The notes under the pieces were generated by a model. The model searched no databases and was not told the DNA's origin. It saw only the letters and a program-made list of their open reading frames with translations. A stretch of 32,257 nt of DNA from a virus: positions 1 through 32,257 of IMG/VR virus record IMGVR_UViG_3300032116_000838. One strand, given 5' to 3'. The position numbers and the translations under genes were made by a program. This document shows, one piece after another, positions 15,797 through 31,962 of this stretch; position 1 is the first letter of the stretch, and each line of letters opens with the position of its first letter.

Positions 15797-16103
15797 TAAG
15801 AAGATATTAGATTTGAGTAGAACGATCTATCAAACATCTGTAATGGTTCACGGAACAAAACAGAACCCGTCAGAACAGATTGATAAGATCAGAGCGATGA
15901 TCCGTGAGTTCATCAGGACAGAAGTTGTTCCTTATGAGTTGACAAATCAAGAAAAATTGACTTTTATTTTAAAAAACGAATCGATGATCTGTGATGCGAT
16001 TGGTAAAGGACACAAGGCAAGTAACGGAGATGAGTTCCAACCTGTCAGAGATAAAATAAAAAAATACAGAATTGAATTAGGAATTATTAAAGATGGAAAA
16101 TAA
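15786..16103 (+). CDS. Hypothetical protein, 105 aa
   Basis: Soluble helical protein (KKILDLSRTIYQTSVMVHGT, then EQIDKIRAMIREFIRTEVVP, then KKYRIELGIIKDGK). No family recognised. Starts in the last 11 bases of the repeat-protein gene and overlaps the following small gene by 11 bases. Confidence 0.68.
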   Translation: MGFDKKILDLSRTIYQTSVMVHGTKQNPSEQIDKIRAMIREFIRTEVVPYELTNQEKLTFILKNESMICDAIGKGHKASNGDEFQPVRDKIKKYRIELGIIKDGK

Positions 16104-16257
16104 TATTGAACAAAGTGCTGTAGACTGGTTAGTTGAGCAGTACAAGAAAGTTGGTGGGATTTCTATTAGTATGGCAGAAAAAGCCAAACAAATGGAGAAC
16201 GAAAAATTGGAATCCCTCAAAGATTTTGAAACTTGGAAAGAATGGAAAAACAAATAA
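16093..16257 (+). CDS. Small conserved-looking phage protein, 54 aa
   Basis: Starts MENNIEQSAVDWLVEQYKKV and ends FETWKEWKNK; charged and helical. The segment SAVDWLVEQ followed by a run of glutamates and lysines resembles a short protein found in many large phages, function unknown. It begins inside the end of the previous gene and stops one base before the next ATG. A longer reading in another frame from 16133 is a shadow of this gene joined to the next. Confidence 0.62.
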   Translation: MENNIEQSAVDWLVEQYKKVGGISISMAEKAKQMENEKLESLKDFETWKEWKNK

Positions 16258-16258
16258 T

Positions 16259-16417
16259 ATGGGAAAATTATCAATTTTAACACGACTCCGACTATGGATC
16301 GGATCAATAGGATGGAGAATGTTTATTTGGGGTGCTGATACAACAGAAGAAAAATATTGGGATGACATCTATGAATTAGAAAAAATGCGTAGAGAACAAA
16401 AAGAAGAGGAAGAATAA
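16259..16417 (+). CDS. Small hypothetical protein, 52 aa
   Basis: Begins MGKLSILTRLRLWIGSIGWR, an amphipathic or membrane-surface helix, and ends in an acidic, charged tail (EKMRREQKEEEE). Function unknown. The start directly follows the previous stop (TAATATG) and one base separates it from the thymidylate synthase gene. Confidence 0.58.
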   Translation: MGKLSILTRLRLWIGSIGWRMFIWGADTTEEKYWDDIYELEKMRREQKEEEE

Positions 16418-16418
16418 C

Positions 16419-17585
16419 ATGAATAAGTTAGATAAACAATACCAAGATTTACTCCAAACTATTTTAGATTACGGAGTTGAAAAGAAAGACCGAACAGGTA
16501 CAGGAACCAAAAGTATTTTTGGTTATACCATTCGTCATAACATGAAAGATGGGTTCCCATTACTTACAACCAAGAAGATGGCTTGGAAAACTATGGTGAC
16601 CGAGTTATTATGGTTCCTTCGTGGTGATACAAACATTAAGTTCCTTGTTGATAATGGTTGTCATATTTGGGATGGTGATGCGTACAAGAATTACTGTACC
16701 GCTTATAAAGATGGTCACGAATTTTATGAGGATGAACAAGTAAAGCGTTCTTTTACTCAAGAAGAATTCATCAACAAAATCAAAACAGATGATGAGTTTG
16801 CTAAAAAGTGGGGTGAATTAGGTCCCGTGTATGGTAAGCAATGGAGAAGTTGGGGTAGTAATATAATAGATGAGTTGGGTAATGTTTATACCAATGAAGT
16901 TGATTACGATATTCAAAATGGAAAATTACCATATGGTTCTTCCAATAGAAAATTTGTTATTGATGAAATTAAAAAATTAAACCCGTCAATAGACCAAATC
17001 CAAAACCTAATCCGTGACCTTAAAACAAATCCAGACTCAAGACGATTAATGGTTTCAGCTTGGAATGTTGGAGAATTAGACCAAATGGTACTTCCACCTT
17101 GCCATTATGGATTTCAAGTTTATACAAGAGAGTTGAGTTCACAGGAACGCAAGGACATTTACGATAAGTCAAACCACGCGAAAGATATCTTTCCAACCGA
17201 TGAAAATGGATGGAATAACTTATTTGATGGATTTAATATTCCAACCAGAGCAATCTCTTTAATGTATAACGCTAGAAGCCAAGATGTTCCACTTGGAACA
17301 CCATTTAATTTGGCATCTTATGGATTACTTCTAACAATATTAGCAAAGGAGGTTAATATGGTTCCTGATGAGTTAATTTCAAATATGGGTGATTGTCACA
17401 TATACCTTAATCAGATTGATGGTGTAAAAGAACAATTAACAAGAGAACCATTTGAGTTGCCAACCCTTAATCCATTCCCAACTTATGAAGGGTCAAGACC
17501 ATCTATAGAATCTTATGTTATTGGTGATTTCACACTTAAAAACTACCAATCACACCCGACTATCAAAATGCCGCTTTCTAACTAG
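16419..17585 (+). CDS. thyA: Thymidylate synthase (ThyA type)
   Basis: Makes dTMP from dUMP with methylenetetrahydrofolate for phage DNA synthesis. Visible: DRTGTGT (24-30), phosphate-binding Arg25; ELLWFLRGDTNI (62-73); LGPVYGKQWR (134-143); DSRRL; SAWNVGELDQM; catalytic Cys228 in LPPCHYGFQ; RSQDVPLGTPFNLASY (286-301); and the C-terminal MGDCHIYLNQ. At 388 residues it is ~120 longer than E. coli ThyA; extra sequence lies at about 86-130, 148-188 and 238-280, but the reading frame is intact and all core motifs are present. A hairpin and a homing endonuclease gene follow directly. Confidence 0.93.
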   Translation: MNKLDKQYQDLLQTILDYGVEKKDRTGTGTKSIFGYTIRHNMKDGFPLLTTKKMAWKTMVTELLWFLRGDTNIKFLVDNGCHIWDGDAYKNYCTAYKDGHEFYEDEQVKRSFTQEEFINKIKTDDEFAKKWGELGPVYGKQWRSWGSNIIDELGNVYTNEVDYDIQNGKLPYGSSNRKFVIDEIKKLNPSIDQIQNLIRDLKTNPDSRRLMVSAWNVGELDQMVLPPCHYGFQVYTRELSSQERKDIYDKSNHAKDIFPTDENGWNNLFDGFNIPTRAISLMYNARSQDVPLGTPFNLASYGLLLTILAKEVNMVPDELISNMGDCHIYLNQIDGVKEQLTREPFELPTLNPFPTYEGSRPSIESYVIGDFTLKNYQSHPTIKMPLSN

Positions 17586-17591
17586 TTTTTT

Positions 17592-17649
17592 TAGGACTAC
17601 CCTTTAACTTTTTAACTTTTGTAGATATTTATATTAAAAGGTAGTCCTA
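17592..17649 (+). promoter_or_regulatory. Long hairpin ending on the start codon of the homing endonuclease
   Basis: AGGACTACC (17593-17601) pairs with GGTAGTCCT (17640-17648); the base pair outside it joins T17592 to A17649, the A of the ATG. After one C-A mismatch, five more pairs (TTTAA 17603-17607 with TTAAA 17634-17638) extend it inward around a 26-base loop. In read-through transcripts from thyA this would bury the start region; transcripts begun inside the loop would lack the 5' arm. Confidence 0.72.
17626..17633 (+). promoter_or_regulatory. Late-promoter-like motif TATTTATA
   Basis: TATTTATA with 15 bases to the ATG at 17649, the same placement as before the endolysin, 21696 and 31963 genes. 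Transcription would start near 17640, at the edge of the 3' hairpin arm. Confidence 0.5.
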
Positions 17650-18383
17650 TGATTGGAATTTATAGAATAAAAAATTTGAAAAACAAAAAGTGTTATTATG
17701 GTTCTTCTAAAAATATAGAAAAAAGATGGAGAACACATTCAAACAACTTAAAAAACGGAAAACATCATAATATCCACTTACAAAGGTCTTGGGATAAGTA
17801 TGGTGAGGATAATTTTGTGTTTGAGTTGGTTGAGGAGTGTAATGAAACTATATTACTTGAGTTAGAACAAAAATACTTGGATTTAAACCCTGAGTTCAAT
17901 ATAGGGATTAAATCAAGTGGAGGAGATAATCTTACAAAAAACCCAAATAAAGAAGACATTGTTCGTAAAATGACTCAATCAGTTAAAAAAAGATATGAAT
18001 TAATGTCTGAAGATGAAAGAAAAGAAAAACATTCCCAACCGATGGATAAAAATCCAAATTGGAAAGGTGGTACAAGTTTTAAATATTGTGAATGCGGTGT
18101 AAAAATATTACCAACCAACAATATTTGTATAAATTGTAGAGATAAGAGTGGTGATAAAAATCCATTTTTTGGAAAACAACATACAGAAGAGACAAAACGA
18201 AAATTAAGTGAATTTAGAAAAGGAACTTATAATGGAGAACAAAATATACCTATAATAATTGATGATATTGAATATAGGTCTGCCGGTGAAGCGTCTAAAT
18301 TACTTAACATACCTATGGTAACTATTAGATGGAGAGTTAAAAGTAAAAACAAAAAGTTTGACAATTACAGATATAAAAATTAA
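17649..18383 (+). CDS. GIY-YIG homing endonuclease with NUMOD motifs
   Basis: 244 residues, free-standing homing endonuclease of the I-TevI/Seg type. N-terminal nuclease: GIY (3-5), YYG (16-18), Arg26, His30, His40, Glu71/Glu73 and Asn84, matching the order of I-TevI active-site residues. Then two NUMOD3-like DNA-binding motifs (DKNPNWKGG at 133, DKNPFFGKQHTEETKRKL at 169), a possible zinc site Cys147/149-Cys160/163 between them, and a NUMOD1-like helix-turn-helix (YRSAGEASKLLNIPMVTIRW, 209-228). Such enzymes cut a phage genome lacking the gene so it is copied in. It lies between thyA and a small gene without interrupting either. Confidence 0.92.
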   Translation: MIGIYRIKNLKNKKCYYGSSKNIEKRWRTHSNNLKNGKHHNIHLQRSWDKYGEDNFVFELVEECNETILLELEQKYLDLNPEFNIGIKSSGGDNLTKNPNKEDIVRKMTQSVKKRYELMSEDERKEKHSQPMDKNPNWKGGTSFKYCECGVKILPTNNICINCRDKSGDKNPFFGKQHTEETKRKLSEFRKGTYNGEQNIPIIIDDIEYRSAGEASKLLNIPMVTIRWRVKSKNKKFDNYRYKN

Positions 18384-18393
18384 AATTAAAAAA

Positions 18394-18519
18394 ATGAAAA
18401 TTGATAAAATAAAACTTGACCACAATAATCGAATGATTAGAATTGGTTTTGGAAAACACGATGGTAATTGGTTTTTCAGAATTGATTTATGGTATAAAGG
18501 ATATAGAATAAAAAAATAA
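18394..18519 (+). CDS. Small hypothetical protein, 41 aa
   Basis: Starts MKIDKIKLDHNNRMIRIGFG and ends FRIDLWYKGYRIKK: a beta-rich, basic small protein. The R-I-G-F-G...F-R-I-D-L-W pattern recalls small phage proteins with two short strands. Preceded by AAAAAAA, a typical start context here. Function unknown. Confidence 0.5.
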   Translation: MKIDKIKLDHNNRMIRIGFGKHDGNWFFRIDLWYKGYRIKK

Positions 18520-18520
18520 T

Positions 18521-18958
18521 ATGATGACAAAAGTATATTCAGCATTCCCCGGTGTAGGGAAGACAACCTATTTCAACACAACAGATAGAAATGTGTTGGA
18601 CAGTGATAGTTCAAAGTTTGATAAGAAAAATTTTCCTGACAACTACATTGATCATATTGAAAGAAACATTCAGGATCCAAAAATAGATAAGATCTTAGTA
18701 TCATCACATAAAGATGTGAGAGACGCACTTCTTAAAAAAGGAATCCCATTTGTGTTGGTTTACCCAAACAGAGACATTAAAGATGAATACATCCAACGAT
18801 ACAAAGACAGAGGTAATAACGATGCGTTTGTTGACTTGTTGGAAAAAAATTGGGATAATTGGATGGACGAGATGGACCAAATGGAAGCACCACAAGGTCA
18901 AACATTATACAAAGTTAAATTAGGTCCAGGTCAGTATTTAGCTGACGTAATTGATTAA
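18521..18958 (+). CDS. P-loop nucleotide kinase-like phage protein
   Basis: 145 residues with an N-terminal Walker A, AFPGVGKTT (8-16), followed by NVLDSDSSKFD, ILVSSHKDVRDALLKKG, FVLVYPNRDIKDEYIQRYK and LLEKNWDNWMDEM. This order (P-loop, D-S-D-S, S-S-H, Y-P near a basic lid) resembles a small P-loop kinase-like family frequent in large phages; substrate unknown. Two adjacent ATGs (18521, 18524) are possible starts. Confidence 0.78.
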   Translation: MMTKVYSAFPGVGKTTYFNTTDRNVLDSDSSKFDKKNFPDNYIDHIERNIQDPKIDKILVSSHKDVRDALLKKGIPFVLVYPNRDIKDEYIQRYKDRGNNDAFVDLLEKNWDNWMDEMDQMEAPQGQTLYKVKLGPGQYLADVID

Positions 18959-18961
18959 ATT

Positions 18962-19204
18962 ATGAGAACAATTAAAATCAGATTTGTAAAAACTAAAAAT
19001 GCTAATTACCACCTCCAAAGAAAAGGATGGTTTGGTAGATGGAAAGATATTGGTTATAGTGTTGATATGGGATATGGAGGTTTTTATATGATATATACCG
19101 CCAAAACAAAAGAAGAATTACTTGATGAGGTTTTAGATAAACATTACCAAGTGTGTAGAAACCATGTTGAGATTATAGAATACCCAACAATAAAAATTTA
19201 TTAA
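18962..19204 (+). CDS. Small hypothetical protein, 80 aa
   Basis: Beta-rich (IKIRFVKTKNANYHLQRK, WKDIGYSVDMGYGGFYMIY) with a helix KTKEELLDEVLDKHYQ. No family recognised. Three bases after the previous stop, with the AAATT-ATG start context. Confidence 0.65.
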   Translation: MRTIKIRFVKTKNANYHLQRKGWFGRWKDIGYSVDMGYGGFYMIYTAKTKEELLDEVLDKHYQVCRNHVEIIEYPTIKIY

Positions 19205-19209
19205 AAATT

Positions 19210-19443
19210 ATGCAAACAAACACGTCGTGGGATGACCCACAATTATCAGACGGAGATTTCCCGTCAAACCAACCTAAGTTCAAAGTAGGAGACAAAGCAA
19301 TCAAAGTAAAAGGGTATAAGTTCCCATGTACAATCGTATCAGTATTCCAAACAGCAGAAGGACATGTACGAGTTGTTGGTGAGATGGATGAATACGGATT
19401 ACTACACATTTTTAACGAAGACCAATTAGAAAAAGCAAATTAA
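19210..19443 (+). CDS. Small SH3/KOW-like protein, 77 aa
   Basis: An acidic N-terminal tail precedes a small barrel-like domain: FKVGDKAIKVKGYKFPCTIV, VFQTAEGHVRVVGEM, GLLHIFNEDQLEK. The start F-K-V-G-D-x-A and ending H-I-F-N-x-x-Q-L are common in phage-encoded SH3/KOW-like proteins of unknown function. Start context AAAATT-ATG; ClpP begins two bases after its stop. Confidence 0.68.
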   Translation: MQTNTSWDDPQLSDGDFPSNQPKFKVGDKAIKVKGYKFPCTIVSVFQTAEGHVRVVGEMDEYGLLHIFNEDQLEKAN

Positions 19444-19444
19444 G

Positions 19445-20170
19445 ATGAATTACGGAAAAGAGTTTAGAAGTTTCGCAAAGAGCGAAGGAATTAGTTCACT
19501 GGCGTTGGACCAGTTTGAAGCATCACTTACCCCATACATTTTGGAAGAGAGAGAAATGAGAGTAACTCAAATGGACATCTTCTCAAGATTGATGCGTGAC
19601 CGTATCTTATGGTTATCGGGGCCTGTAGATCAAAGAATGTCAGATATAGTACAAGCACAATTATTGTTTTTGGATTCAGTTGAAAAGAAAGACATCACAC
19701 TTTATATTAATAGTCCTGGTGGTTCAGTAATGTGTGGTCTTGGTATTGTGGATTTGATGAACTATGTAAGTTCAGACATAGTGACCACAAACTTAGGTAT
19801 GTGTGCATCGATGGGTTCAGTTCTTGTATCATCAGGAACAAAAGGAAAACGTTCATCACTTATCCATTCAAAAGTAATGACACACCAAGTAAGTCACGGA
19901 ACACGAGGAAACATCCAAGACACTCGTATCGATCAAATGGAGGGTGAAAAGTATAACTACATTTTATTCAAGATCTTGGCGGAGAATTGCGGTAGAACAT
20001 TCCAAGAGGTATTAGACTTTTCATCAAGAGATAGATGGTACAATTCAGAAGAAGCAAAAGAGTTCGGACTTATTGATGAGATAATCGGAGCGGATAAAAA
20101 CAAATCAATCACGAACTACTTGGATGGGTTTGATGATTATTACAAGAAAGAAGTATTGGGTGTAAAGTAA
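19445..20170 (+). CDS. clpP: ClpP-family serine protease
   Basis: 241 residues, peptidase family S14. Landmarks: LYINSPGGSV (87-95), nucleophile Ser122 in CASMGSVL, His147 in VMTHQ, and Asp196 in SSRDRWYNSEEAKEFGLIDE. The catalytic triad is complete. The N-terminus is ~30 residues longer than bacterial ClpP before the R-I-L-W-L-S-G strand. Phage ClpP homologues occur in large phages; they may act in capsid maturation or alter host proteolysis, and this one has no Clp ATPase beside it. Its TAA lies in the loop of the following terminator. Confidence 0.92.
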   Translation: MNYGKEFRSFAKSEGISSLALDQFEASLTPYILEEREMRVTQMDIFSRLMRDRILWLSGPVDQRMSDIVQAQLLFLDSVEKKDITLYINSPGGSVMCGLGIVDLMNYVSSDIVTTNLGMCASMGSVLVSSGTKGKRSSLIHSKVMTHQVSHGTRGNIQDTRIDQMEGEKYNYILFKILAENCGRTFQEVLDFSSRDRWYNSEEAKEFGLIDEIIGADKNKSITNYLDGFDDYYKKEVLGVK

Positions 20171-20750: not shown

Positions 20751-21587
20751 TTACTTAAGTAAGTTATAATACTCTTTGAAATGTTTGATTCGATCAGGTA
20801 AGCCAATAGTTCCACCATTCACTCTCTTTGTCACTGCAGTTACAGTTGCATCATCCGTACCTTTATCACAGATTGACCATAATTTATTTGAGTCAAAGAA
20901 GAATGCTGCCGATGCTAAAGGATATTTGGTTGCAACTAAATCAGGGTTCGCAACACAATCTTCACCAATGAATTTTGTAAAGTTAGTATAGTTTGCCTTA
21001 CCTGTTAATTGAATGTAACCTCTACCTCTAAATTTAAAACCTTCTTTAGATGCTTCATCACCATTACCCATTCTTGATGCGTAAACACGAGATGCGATTT
21101 TTTCAGGTTGACGAGCATAAGACTCATTCAGGTTACCAGGGAAATACTTACCAAAGATTTTCTTTAAACCATCGGCAGAGTAATTCAAGTTCTCACTAAC
21201 CGCTTTAAAACCGCCTGACTCGTGACCACATTGCGCTAAGAAATGAGCTAGTCTTAAATTATTTGTGATGTTGAATTTTTTGGCAGTTTCAGGTATCTGT
21301 GCAAGAACTGCATCAGGAATGTGACCCTTTAATTTTTCAATATTTAATGGACCTCCTGATGGGATAACCACATCCTCTTTAATAACTTCTGCGGTAGGTT
21401 TTGACTCACCAAATAGTTTTGCCCATGTGGCATCACCAACGATACCATCATCTTTTAAACCATTTGCTTTTTGCCAAGCTTTAACCGCGGCTTCTGTTTT
21501 AGGACCAAATTTTCCAATTGCTTCTACACCTAATTTTTCTTGGAGTTTTTTTACGTCAGCTCCTTCTGACCCAACTTTTAGTACCAT
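20751..21587 (-). CDS. Endolysin: peptidoglycan-binding plus GH19-like domain
   Basis: 278 residues from MVLKVGSEGADV. Residues 5-58 are a peptidoglycan-binding type 1 domain (DVKKLQEKLG, GKFGPKTEAAVKAWQ, DGIVGDATWAKLFG). A GH19-type chitinase/lysozyme domain follows from about 85 to 278: HFLAQCGHESGGF with likely catalytic Glu123, second acid candidate Glu132, RGRGYIQLTGKANY (187-200), and VTKRVNGGTIGLPDR (252-266). It should cleave cell-wall glycan for host lysis. No signal peptide, so release probably needs a holin. A start at 21626 would add 13 residues and cover the promoter motif. It is the only minus-strand gene in the window. Confidence 0.9.
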   Translation of the reverse strand: MVLKVGSEGADVKKLQEKLGVEAIGKFGPKTEAAVKAWQKANGLKDDGIVGDATWAKLFGESKPTAEVIKEDVVIPSGGPLNIEKLKGHIPDAVLAQIPETAKKFNITNNLRLAHFLAQCGHESGGFKAVSENLNYSADGLKKIFGKYFPGNLNESYARQPEKIASRVYASRMGNGDEASKEGFKFRGRGYIQLTGKANYTNFTKFIGEDCVANPDLVATKYPLASAAFFFDSNKLWSICDKGTDDATVTAVTKRVNGGTIGLPDRIKHFKEYYNLLK

Positions 21588-21602
21588 AATTTTTGATTTT
21601 CC

Positions 21603-21610
21603 TATAAATA
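21603..21610 (-). promoter_or_regulatory. Late-promoter-like motif for the endolysin
   Basis: On the minus strand the bases read TATTTATA and end 15 bases before the endolysin ATG. The plus strand shows TATAAATA. Confidence 0.5.
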
Positions 21611-24606: not shown

Positions 24607-24888
24607 ATGGCACAAAAGAAAACAAAAAAATCATTCTTAGTAAGAATGTTTATGGATCAAAACGACATCAACGAAAAATCAATCGTAGGTTTCGGATCAT
24701 TTTTAATGATGGTAATTTGTTTAGGTGTAGATATCTACACAGGATTTCACGGACAAGAAATGCCAATCAACAAATTTATCTACGATGGTTTTTTATGGAT
24801 CACTTTAGGTTCATTTGGAATTGCTTCAGTTGACAAATATTTGTCAGGTAAAAATCAGAACAACGAAGAAGAAGAAGTAGAAGGGTAA
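24607..24888 (+). CDS. Two-helix membrane protein, holin candidate
   Basis: 93 residues: basic N-terminus (KKTKKSFLVRMFMDQNDINEKS), helix 1 about 26-47 (VGFGSFLMMVICLGVDIYTG), helix 2 about 58-77 (FIYDGFLWITLGSFGIASVD), and a charged tail KYLSGKNQNNEEEE. Size and topology fit a class II holin, and the family of small phage proteins with D-K-Y-L after the last helix looks familiar, but context alone cannot prove lysis. One-base overlap (TAATG) with the CsgG-like gene. Confidence 0.65.
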   Translation: MAQKKTKKSFLVRMFMDQNDINEKSIVGFGSFLMMVICLGVDIYTGFHGQEMPINKFIYDGFLWITLGSFGIASVDKYLSGKNQNNEEEEVEG

Positions 24889-31929: not shown

Positions 31930-31940
31930 AAACTTGATGA

Positions 31941-31948
31941 TATTTATA
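31941..31948 (+). promoter_or_regulatory. Late-promoter-like motif TATTTATA
   Basis: TATTTATA ends 14 bases before the ATG at 31963; the intergenic sequence around it is nearly pure A/T. Confidence 0.45.
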
Positions 31949-31962
31949 ATAAAAAATATATT

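Follow-up and report, generated by a model that had tools for sequence, protein, structure and literature searches.

What does a hairpin that ends on the start codon of a selfish endonuclease gene do, and how did such a gene come to stand directly behind an intact host gene? Both questions are raised by the 32,257-nt stretch of viral DNA analysed here (the window), in which the endonuclease starts 63 nt behind thyA. The initial annotation, made from the letters of the window, had proposed that the hairpin hides the start in read-through RNA and leaves it free in late RNA, in the manner of phage T4 I-TevI.

Endonuclease and its kinship to I-TevI

The endonuclease gene (17649-18383, plus strand) encodes 244 aa. 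It was identified as a freestanding I-TevI-type GIY-YIG endonuclease by Pfam, by matches to solved structures and by comparison with T4. The domains PF01541, PF22635 and PF07460 (GIY-YIG, I-TevI zinc finger and NUMOD3) were all above the Pfam cut-offs, and both solved halves of I-TevI were matched (1I3J, 8e-15; 1MK0, 2e-12). When the T4 genome was compared, the sole match was I-TevI, with 38% identity over residues 3-233 (E 5e-40). T4 carries I-TevI within an intron of td, the homologue of thyA. The window thyA (16419-17585, plus strand; PF00303, 4e-93) encodes thymidylate synthase and is the host gene of the element. It is one uninterrupted frame ending at 17585, and a hidden td intron was rejected because no Rfam match was found in 16000-19500.

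The same endonuclease family was also found beside a ThyA paralogue (L021, 2109-2933) and beside the unrelated ThyX, co-directional with it in L032 (2263-2937) and divergent from it in L239 (2918-3595). The family thus adjoins three kinds of thymidylate-synthase gene. In three large phage contigs (L064, L069 and L077), thyA is in pieces with a related endonuclease inside, resembling the td intron; Rfam gave no intron match at the loci with interrupted thyA.

Hairpin and opening of the start codon

The hairpin occupies 17592-17649 on the plus strand. By inspection of the sequence, TAGGACTACC (17592-17601) is paired with GGTAGTCCTA (17640-17649) in a 10-bp stem, whose outermost pair uses the A of the ATG at 17649. 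Beyond a C.A mismatch (17602/17639) the stem is extended by TTTAA (17603-17607) and TTAAA (17634-17638), and the loop holds TATTTATA at 17626-17633. The minimum free energy is -15.9 kcal/mol with a z value of -3.7, and none of 200 dinucleotide shuffles was equally stable (mean -7.9, sd 2.2). A listing of the window gave 20 inverted repeats, among them this one (I3), with 16-nt arms that are 94% complementary. The stem closing on the A of the ATG and the motif in its loop were therefore present as first described.

The accessibility of the start was measured as the cost of opening positions -12 to +3 around it, and the late RNA was taken from 5 nt past the motif. For the endonuclease, the predicted cost was 15.5 kcal/mol in read-through RNA and 2.8 kcal/mol in late RNA. 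This agrees with the proposal that the start is hidden in read-through RNA and free after TATTTATA. The mean cost for the 42 other window genes was 3.3, and none reached the endonuclease value. The next one, 13.6 kcal/mol at 24888, is the only further high value among the window starts. Among 232 starts of Immutovirus, the mean was 3.2 and the maximum 10.4. The difference between read-through and late RNA was 1.8 on average and at most 6.0 for 21 Immutovirus late-promoter genes, three of the 24 having been left out with the motif too close to the start. A comparable calculation for T4 I-TevI, with the region -15 to +3, gave 14.3 and 5.0. As a model, the mechanism of the initial annotation is well supported by prediction and comparison. 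Only 7 nt separate the thyA stop (17585) and the 5' arm, so that ribosomes terminating there may partly melt this arm.

Late promoter motif

The consensus of the T4 late promoters is TATAAATA. The motif TATTTATA is the reverse complement of this consensus and hence differs from the T4 motif on the coding strand. It is the coding-strand motif of a T4-like Flavobacterium-phage group. The core (17626-17633, plus strand) lies within the extended promoter GATATTTATATTAAA (17624-17638, plus strand), and with the spacing of T4 late promoters the late transcript is predicted to start at 17639 on the same strand.

By a window-wide count, TATTTATA was not enriched (6 matches against 4.4 expected). Upstream of genes, it was found before 2 of the 44 window genes against 0.19 simulated. 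These are the endonuclease and an endolysin-like gene, before which the motif stands at 21587-21610 on the minus strand. The best relatives of the window thyA among named phages are Immutovirus, 160-kb Flavobacterium phages with annotated T4-type gp20 and gp23. In the Immutovirus genome, TATTTATA lies no more than 60 nt upstream of 16 of the 64 genes in structural or late blocks, whose borders were drawn by hand from the annotation, against 0.73 simulated. Outside the structural blocks it was found upstream of 8 of 168 genes (1.7 simulated). The genes preceded by it include terminase, gp20, tail sheath, tape measure and tail spike. In the related contig G002, the motif stands before 31 of 165 predicted genes (2.6 simulated; 5 for the reverse-motif control), and in the endonuclease-bearing contig G001 before 7 of 100 (1.2 simulated; 5 for the reverse motif). 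A random AT-rich word is compatible with the window count and was ruled out by the related genomes. The pattern TTTTTAGGACTACC by itself was too unspecific.

The T4 late-sigma family phrog_234 was detected in 9 of 15 records, T4 itself being one of the nine. The match was strong in three relatives and weak (E 0.008) in Immutovirus. We regard TATTTATA as the core of the late promoters in this phage group, and the genes that it serves suggest its timing. The read-through RNA would be early. The part that the initial annotation gave to the motif in late RNA fits its promoter-like enrichment before late genes of Immutovirus and in G002. A further stretch, GATATTTATAATAAA, was noted near the right end of the window (31939-31953).

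Hairpin in relatives

The hairpin was compared in relatives that have the same endonuclease. The expectation that they would share it held for 28 of 31 distinct relatives (window included), in which the opening contrast was at least 5.1, and it failed for L295, L340 and L309 (differences of 0.0, 0.2 and 2.2). L039, L040 and L041 pass the opening measure, yet fold like shuffles (z about 0), and L032 has a folding z of -1.8 only. In 21 distinct aligned sequences, 94.5% of 328 cells were paired, against at most 58.3% with the partner slid. Changes on both sides occurred at two pairs (3 cells), for example C-G to U-A in L315, and single pairs were broken in four relatives (L014, L031, L033 and L246). 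Because the broken cells, with the mismatch pair excluded, are about as many as the wobble cells, the pairing alignment alone is modest support. Covariation is weak, and an identical pattern would arise from two inverted operator copies evolving together.

Stronger support for kept pairing than the alignment is given by L042, L307 and L321. Their ancestral arms have decayed, and a different upstream stretch hides the ATG. In L239, where the endonuclease is divergent from thyX, the 5' arm has been lost while the promoter and the 3' arm persist (opening 3.5 vs 2.2). This loss, in one case, matches the prediction for a device against read-through. In the sister clade (L045 type, 43% identical), the promoter is present and a start-hiding hairpin is lacking. 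In L247, the hairpin is retained although the endonuclease frame is dead. A chance hairpin was ruled out by the shuffles, the start-opening controls and the conservation of pairing.

The I-TevI-like genes of the sister clade (L045-L062) occupy the equivalent site behind thyA, with the same promoter.

Arms as probable copies of the target site

The codons at 17588-17608 are TTT TTA GGA CTA CCC TTT AAC, which translate as FLGLPFN, the motif that ThyA has where the td intron is inserted. This target-site copy (TTTTTAGGACTACCCTTTAAC, plus strand) includes the 5' arm (17592-17607). An inverted copy (ATCATAGGACTACCTTTTAAT, 17633-17653, minus strand) includes the 3' arm and the start codon. The 5' arm agrees with the core of the T4 td homing site at 19 of 24 bases, whereas 300 shuffled leaders never exceeded 16. 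The 3' arm, read on the minus strand, agrees with the native thyA site of the phage group at 17 of 24 (0 of 300 shuffles). In the same test, the accepted operator of T4 I-TevI scored 14 of 24, which was reached by 39 of 300 shuffles. Among the 32 leaders examined, the plus copy was found at -53 to -61 in 30 and the minus copy at a constant place in 23.

The initial annotation had stated that these elements share no sequence with T4. This is wrong because the endonuclease is a homologue of I-TevI sited behind the homologue of td, and the 38% identity and the 19/24 match of the arm contradict it directly. The view of the control as convergent is likewise at odds with the I-TevI homology, with the same host gene (thyA being td) and with the td-site-like arms. 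Conservation of the T4 operator letters was tried and rejected: a 26-base query of operator plus promoter scored 16 of 26 in the window, and 22 of 300 shuffles did so too. Since this is not clearly above the shuffles, we make no claim that the operator letters were directly inherited.

Autorepression of I-TevI through a homing-site-like operator has been published (PMC2988022, available part). Here too, a homing-site-like sequence is located at the late promoter of the endonuclease, and by analogy the arms may be operators bound by the enzyme. At the position of I-TevI cleavage the arm has GCCGC and not CNNNG, as expected if it were an operator that escapes cutting.

thyA alleles and insertion scars

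The equivalent of the I-TevI homing site in thyA (17268-17309, plus strand) is changed, NARSQDVPLGTPFN replacing NQRSVDTFLGLPFN in the allele alignment. At the cleavage position, the window has GCTAG where CAACG is expected. The 3' part of this thyA is of the element type. In its tail, KMPLSN, codon 384 (17568-17570, plus strand) is Met, and native tails have Ala at this place. Ala before PLSN occurs in none of the 39 element-bearing thyA rows of both clades, against 32 of 42 element-free rows (28 strict and 4 with variant endings).

Of 81 rows, 75 were long enough for the thyA alignment: 34 element-bearing, 30 element-free with the Ala tail and 11 other element-free. In these 75, the differences between element and native ThyA are concentrated in codons about 240-388. 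The tail was at first taken as the entire difference, and this was revised to the longer span. Residue 291 is F or L in all 30 Ala-tail element-free rows, a comparison class defined partly by the Ala tail, and P or G in all 34 element-bearing rows; the 11 other element-free rows have P (8), G (2) and F (1). CNNNG at the cleavage position was found in 31 of 31 Ala-tail element-free, 18 of 37 element-bearing and 2 of 11 other element-free rows. The C-terminal part of element-associated ThyA forms a supported cluster on the tree, with 27 of 28 clade-1 rows, 9 of 9 sister-clade rows and 9 element-free rows. Because of this clustering, the allele associations do not represent independent events. 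L029, by comparison, falls among native ThyA on the tree, with a site and a tail of the element type. We read the allele data as an element that carries a resistant 3' part of thyA along with it. The ThyA alleles beside the element appear to have lost the td-type homing site, at which cleavage would occur.

Scars of insertion were found behind the endonuclease. In front of the next gene, the right junction AATTAAAAAAATG (18384-18396, plus strand) probably retains the last bases of native thyA (AAT TAA), as judged against the element-free locus L275. After the endonuclease stop the window keeps only AATTAA, as around the thyA stop in element-free loci. A displaced native-type thyA tail is present in 10 of 36 clade-1 loci and in 2 of 11 sister-clade loci (L054 and L060). 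In six of the 36 (L029, L030, L031, L033, L272 and L315) the endonuclease frame is fused into the displaced tail, and in four more (L014, L246, L251 and L309) the tail lies no more than 270 nt away. L328 is a fossil with an element-type tail, the 5' arm and then a native-tail remnant, and the endonuclease is absent. One-sided repair with microhomology has been described for T4 (PMC2988022, in part), and endonuclease genes bringing a foreign host-gene tail for fungal mitochondria (PMC3630166, in part).

About 260 nt beyond the endonuclease, L014 and L246 have a second gene frame downstream that terminates in a thyA tail (YQSHPSIKAPLSN). This would fit a hotspot of repeated insertion at the thyA 3' end.

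Proposed mechanism and alternatives

We consider it probable that the locus, taken as a whole, is a freestanding I-TevI-type element with a control cassette and a resistant thyA part. In this proposal, a freestanding I-TevI-type homing endonuclease would have become established immediately after thyA in a Flavobacterium phage of T4-like type. It would have its own control cassette, in which two inverted copies of the probable target, the td/thyA FLGLPFN site, flank the late promoter. In thyA read-through RNA the copies would pair and the 10-bp stem would close on the A of the ATG, so that the endonuclease would not be translated from it. In late RNA, beginning near 17639, the start would be open because the 5' copy would be missing. 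On DNA, the same copies would be placed as operators of the enzyme, as known for I-TevI. The element would travel with a thyA 3' part bearing an altered target site, through which the donor allele would escape cleavage. An I-TevI-type module with operator and hairpin merged is most likely, and we favour that selection keeps both the RNA hairpin and the DNA operator pair. The fullest version is put forward tentatively, as a serious possibility: a 58-nt cassette that is promoter, operator pair and RNA switch together, with a hairpin from inverted target copies, so that enzyme binding on DNA and translation timing on RNA would share the same letters, and an attached thyA that is immune.

The inverted repeat could instead be a DNA operator pair for autorepression of the endonuclease, with an RNA hairpin that is incidental and not selected. 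Both arms do resemble the td/thyA target, and autorepression of this kind is on record for I-TevI (PMC2988022, available part). A minus-strand copy is kept without the 5' copy in L239 (18/24) and, more weakly, in the sister clade L045-L062 (15-16/24), while the 5' copy is still recognisable in L309, L295 and L340, all without the hairpin. However, the end of the stem is the start codon in every aligned member, and a perfect 10-bp stem would be expected to hinder initiation regardless of its origin. In L042, L307 and L321 the inverted copy is gone, and a new 5' arm still hides the ATG. L239 misses the 5' arm alone, and no thyX read-through would enter its endonuclease because the genes are divergent. 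We consider operators without a selected hairpin rather unlikely.

It is highly improbable that the 5' arm has no regulatory role and is a mere fossil, be it of the homing site or of a piece of thyA that an insertion left behind. FLGLPFN is read in frame and the arm lies at the left edge of the element next to the thyA tail; but complementarity to the leader is largely kept in the 21 aligned distinct sequences with some coordinated change, and the arm is retained beside ThyX (L032) and the ThyA paralogue (L021). We give equally little credence to the idea that transcription is terminated, or the RNA processed, at this hairpin between the thyA and endonuclease genes. The hairpin does sit in the gap separating two co-directional genes. 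However, its stem has no T-run behind it and includes the start codon, and the terminator reading was rejected after a search of 17300-18500, which spans this gap, found no terminator.

Comparison with known systems

The merged module that we prefer is closest to T4 td/I-TevI. The two share a homologous endonuclease, the same host gene and, by folding prediction, a hairpin that opens only in late RNA, as well as a target-like operator adjoining the late promoter (PMC2988022, in part). Unlike I-TevI, the window endonuclease stands behind an uninterrupted thyA and not in an intron, and its promoter is TATTTATA. In T4 the operator and the hairpin are separate, whereas the operator-like copies of the window would be the two arms of the hairpin. 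T4 SegB and Aeh1 MobE are also freestanding, with an arrangement of promoter and RNA structure of the I-TevI type (PMC2988022, available part). They are other endonucleases with other host genes, MobE being HNH. No report of SegB or MobE hairpin arms as target copies was found in the open-access literature, and in the same literature a hairpin of target copies, the merged variant, was not found in print.

The proposed homing resembles the intronless homing of the T4 seg genes segF and segG, which are freestanding with host-gene co-conversion (PMC2988022, in part); here the probable cleavage site is about 350 bp off. Unlike in the seg genes, the probable target here would be the td intron site. 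The displaced tails resemble the mitochondrial mORF hybrids, in which an endonuclease comes with a host-gene C-terminus and the native one is displaced downstream. Such hybrid genes are Allomyces atp6 and Glomus atp6, atp9, cox2 and nad3 (PMC3630166, available part). Unlike the mORFs, the present case concerns a phage thyA, and the window keeps just a few bases of the displaced tail.

The locus extends the textbook td/I-TevI system to freestanding endonucleases in phages of the Flavobacterium type and probably joins two controls that T4 keeps apart. The published rationale for the delayed expression of I-TevI in T4 is the protection of td splicing (PMC2988022, in part). The relatives form a natural series in which the hairpin is kept, rebuilt with another arm or absent, with ThyA or ThyX neighbours and with fossils after loss. 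This series could test why selfish nucleases delay their expression without intron splicing to protect. It also bears on whether intron endonucleases originate from freestanding ones already cutting the same site.

Other insertions at thyA were observed as well. In L247 (1175-4820, minus strand), the 5' part of thyA carries an inserted DUF7487 endonuclease that shares the late motif. This endonuclease has its own start-hiding structure (9.2 vs 1.5 kcal/mol); upstream of it lies a displaced N-terminal piece of thyA, and downstream a complete thyA into which an insertion has been made in frame. In L332 (3614-3670), another GIY-YIG-like gene stands behind thyA, and its late leader has a short inverted repeat, TATGGTA ... 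TACCATA, immediately before the ATG.
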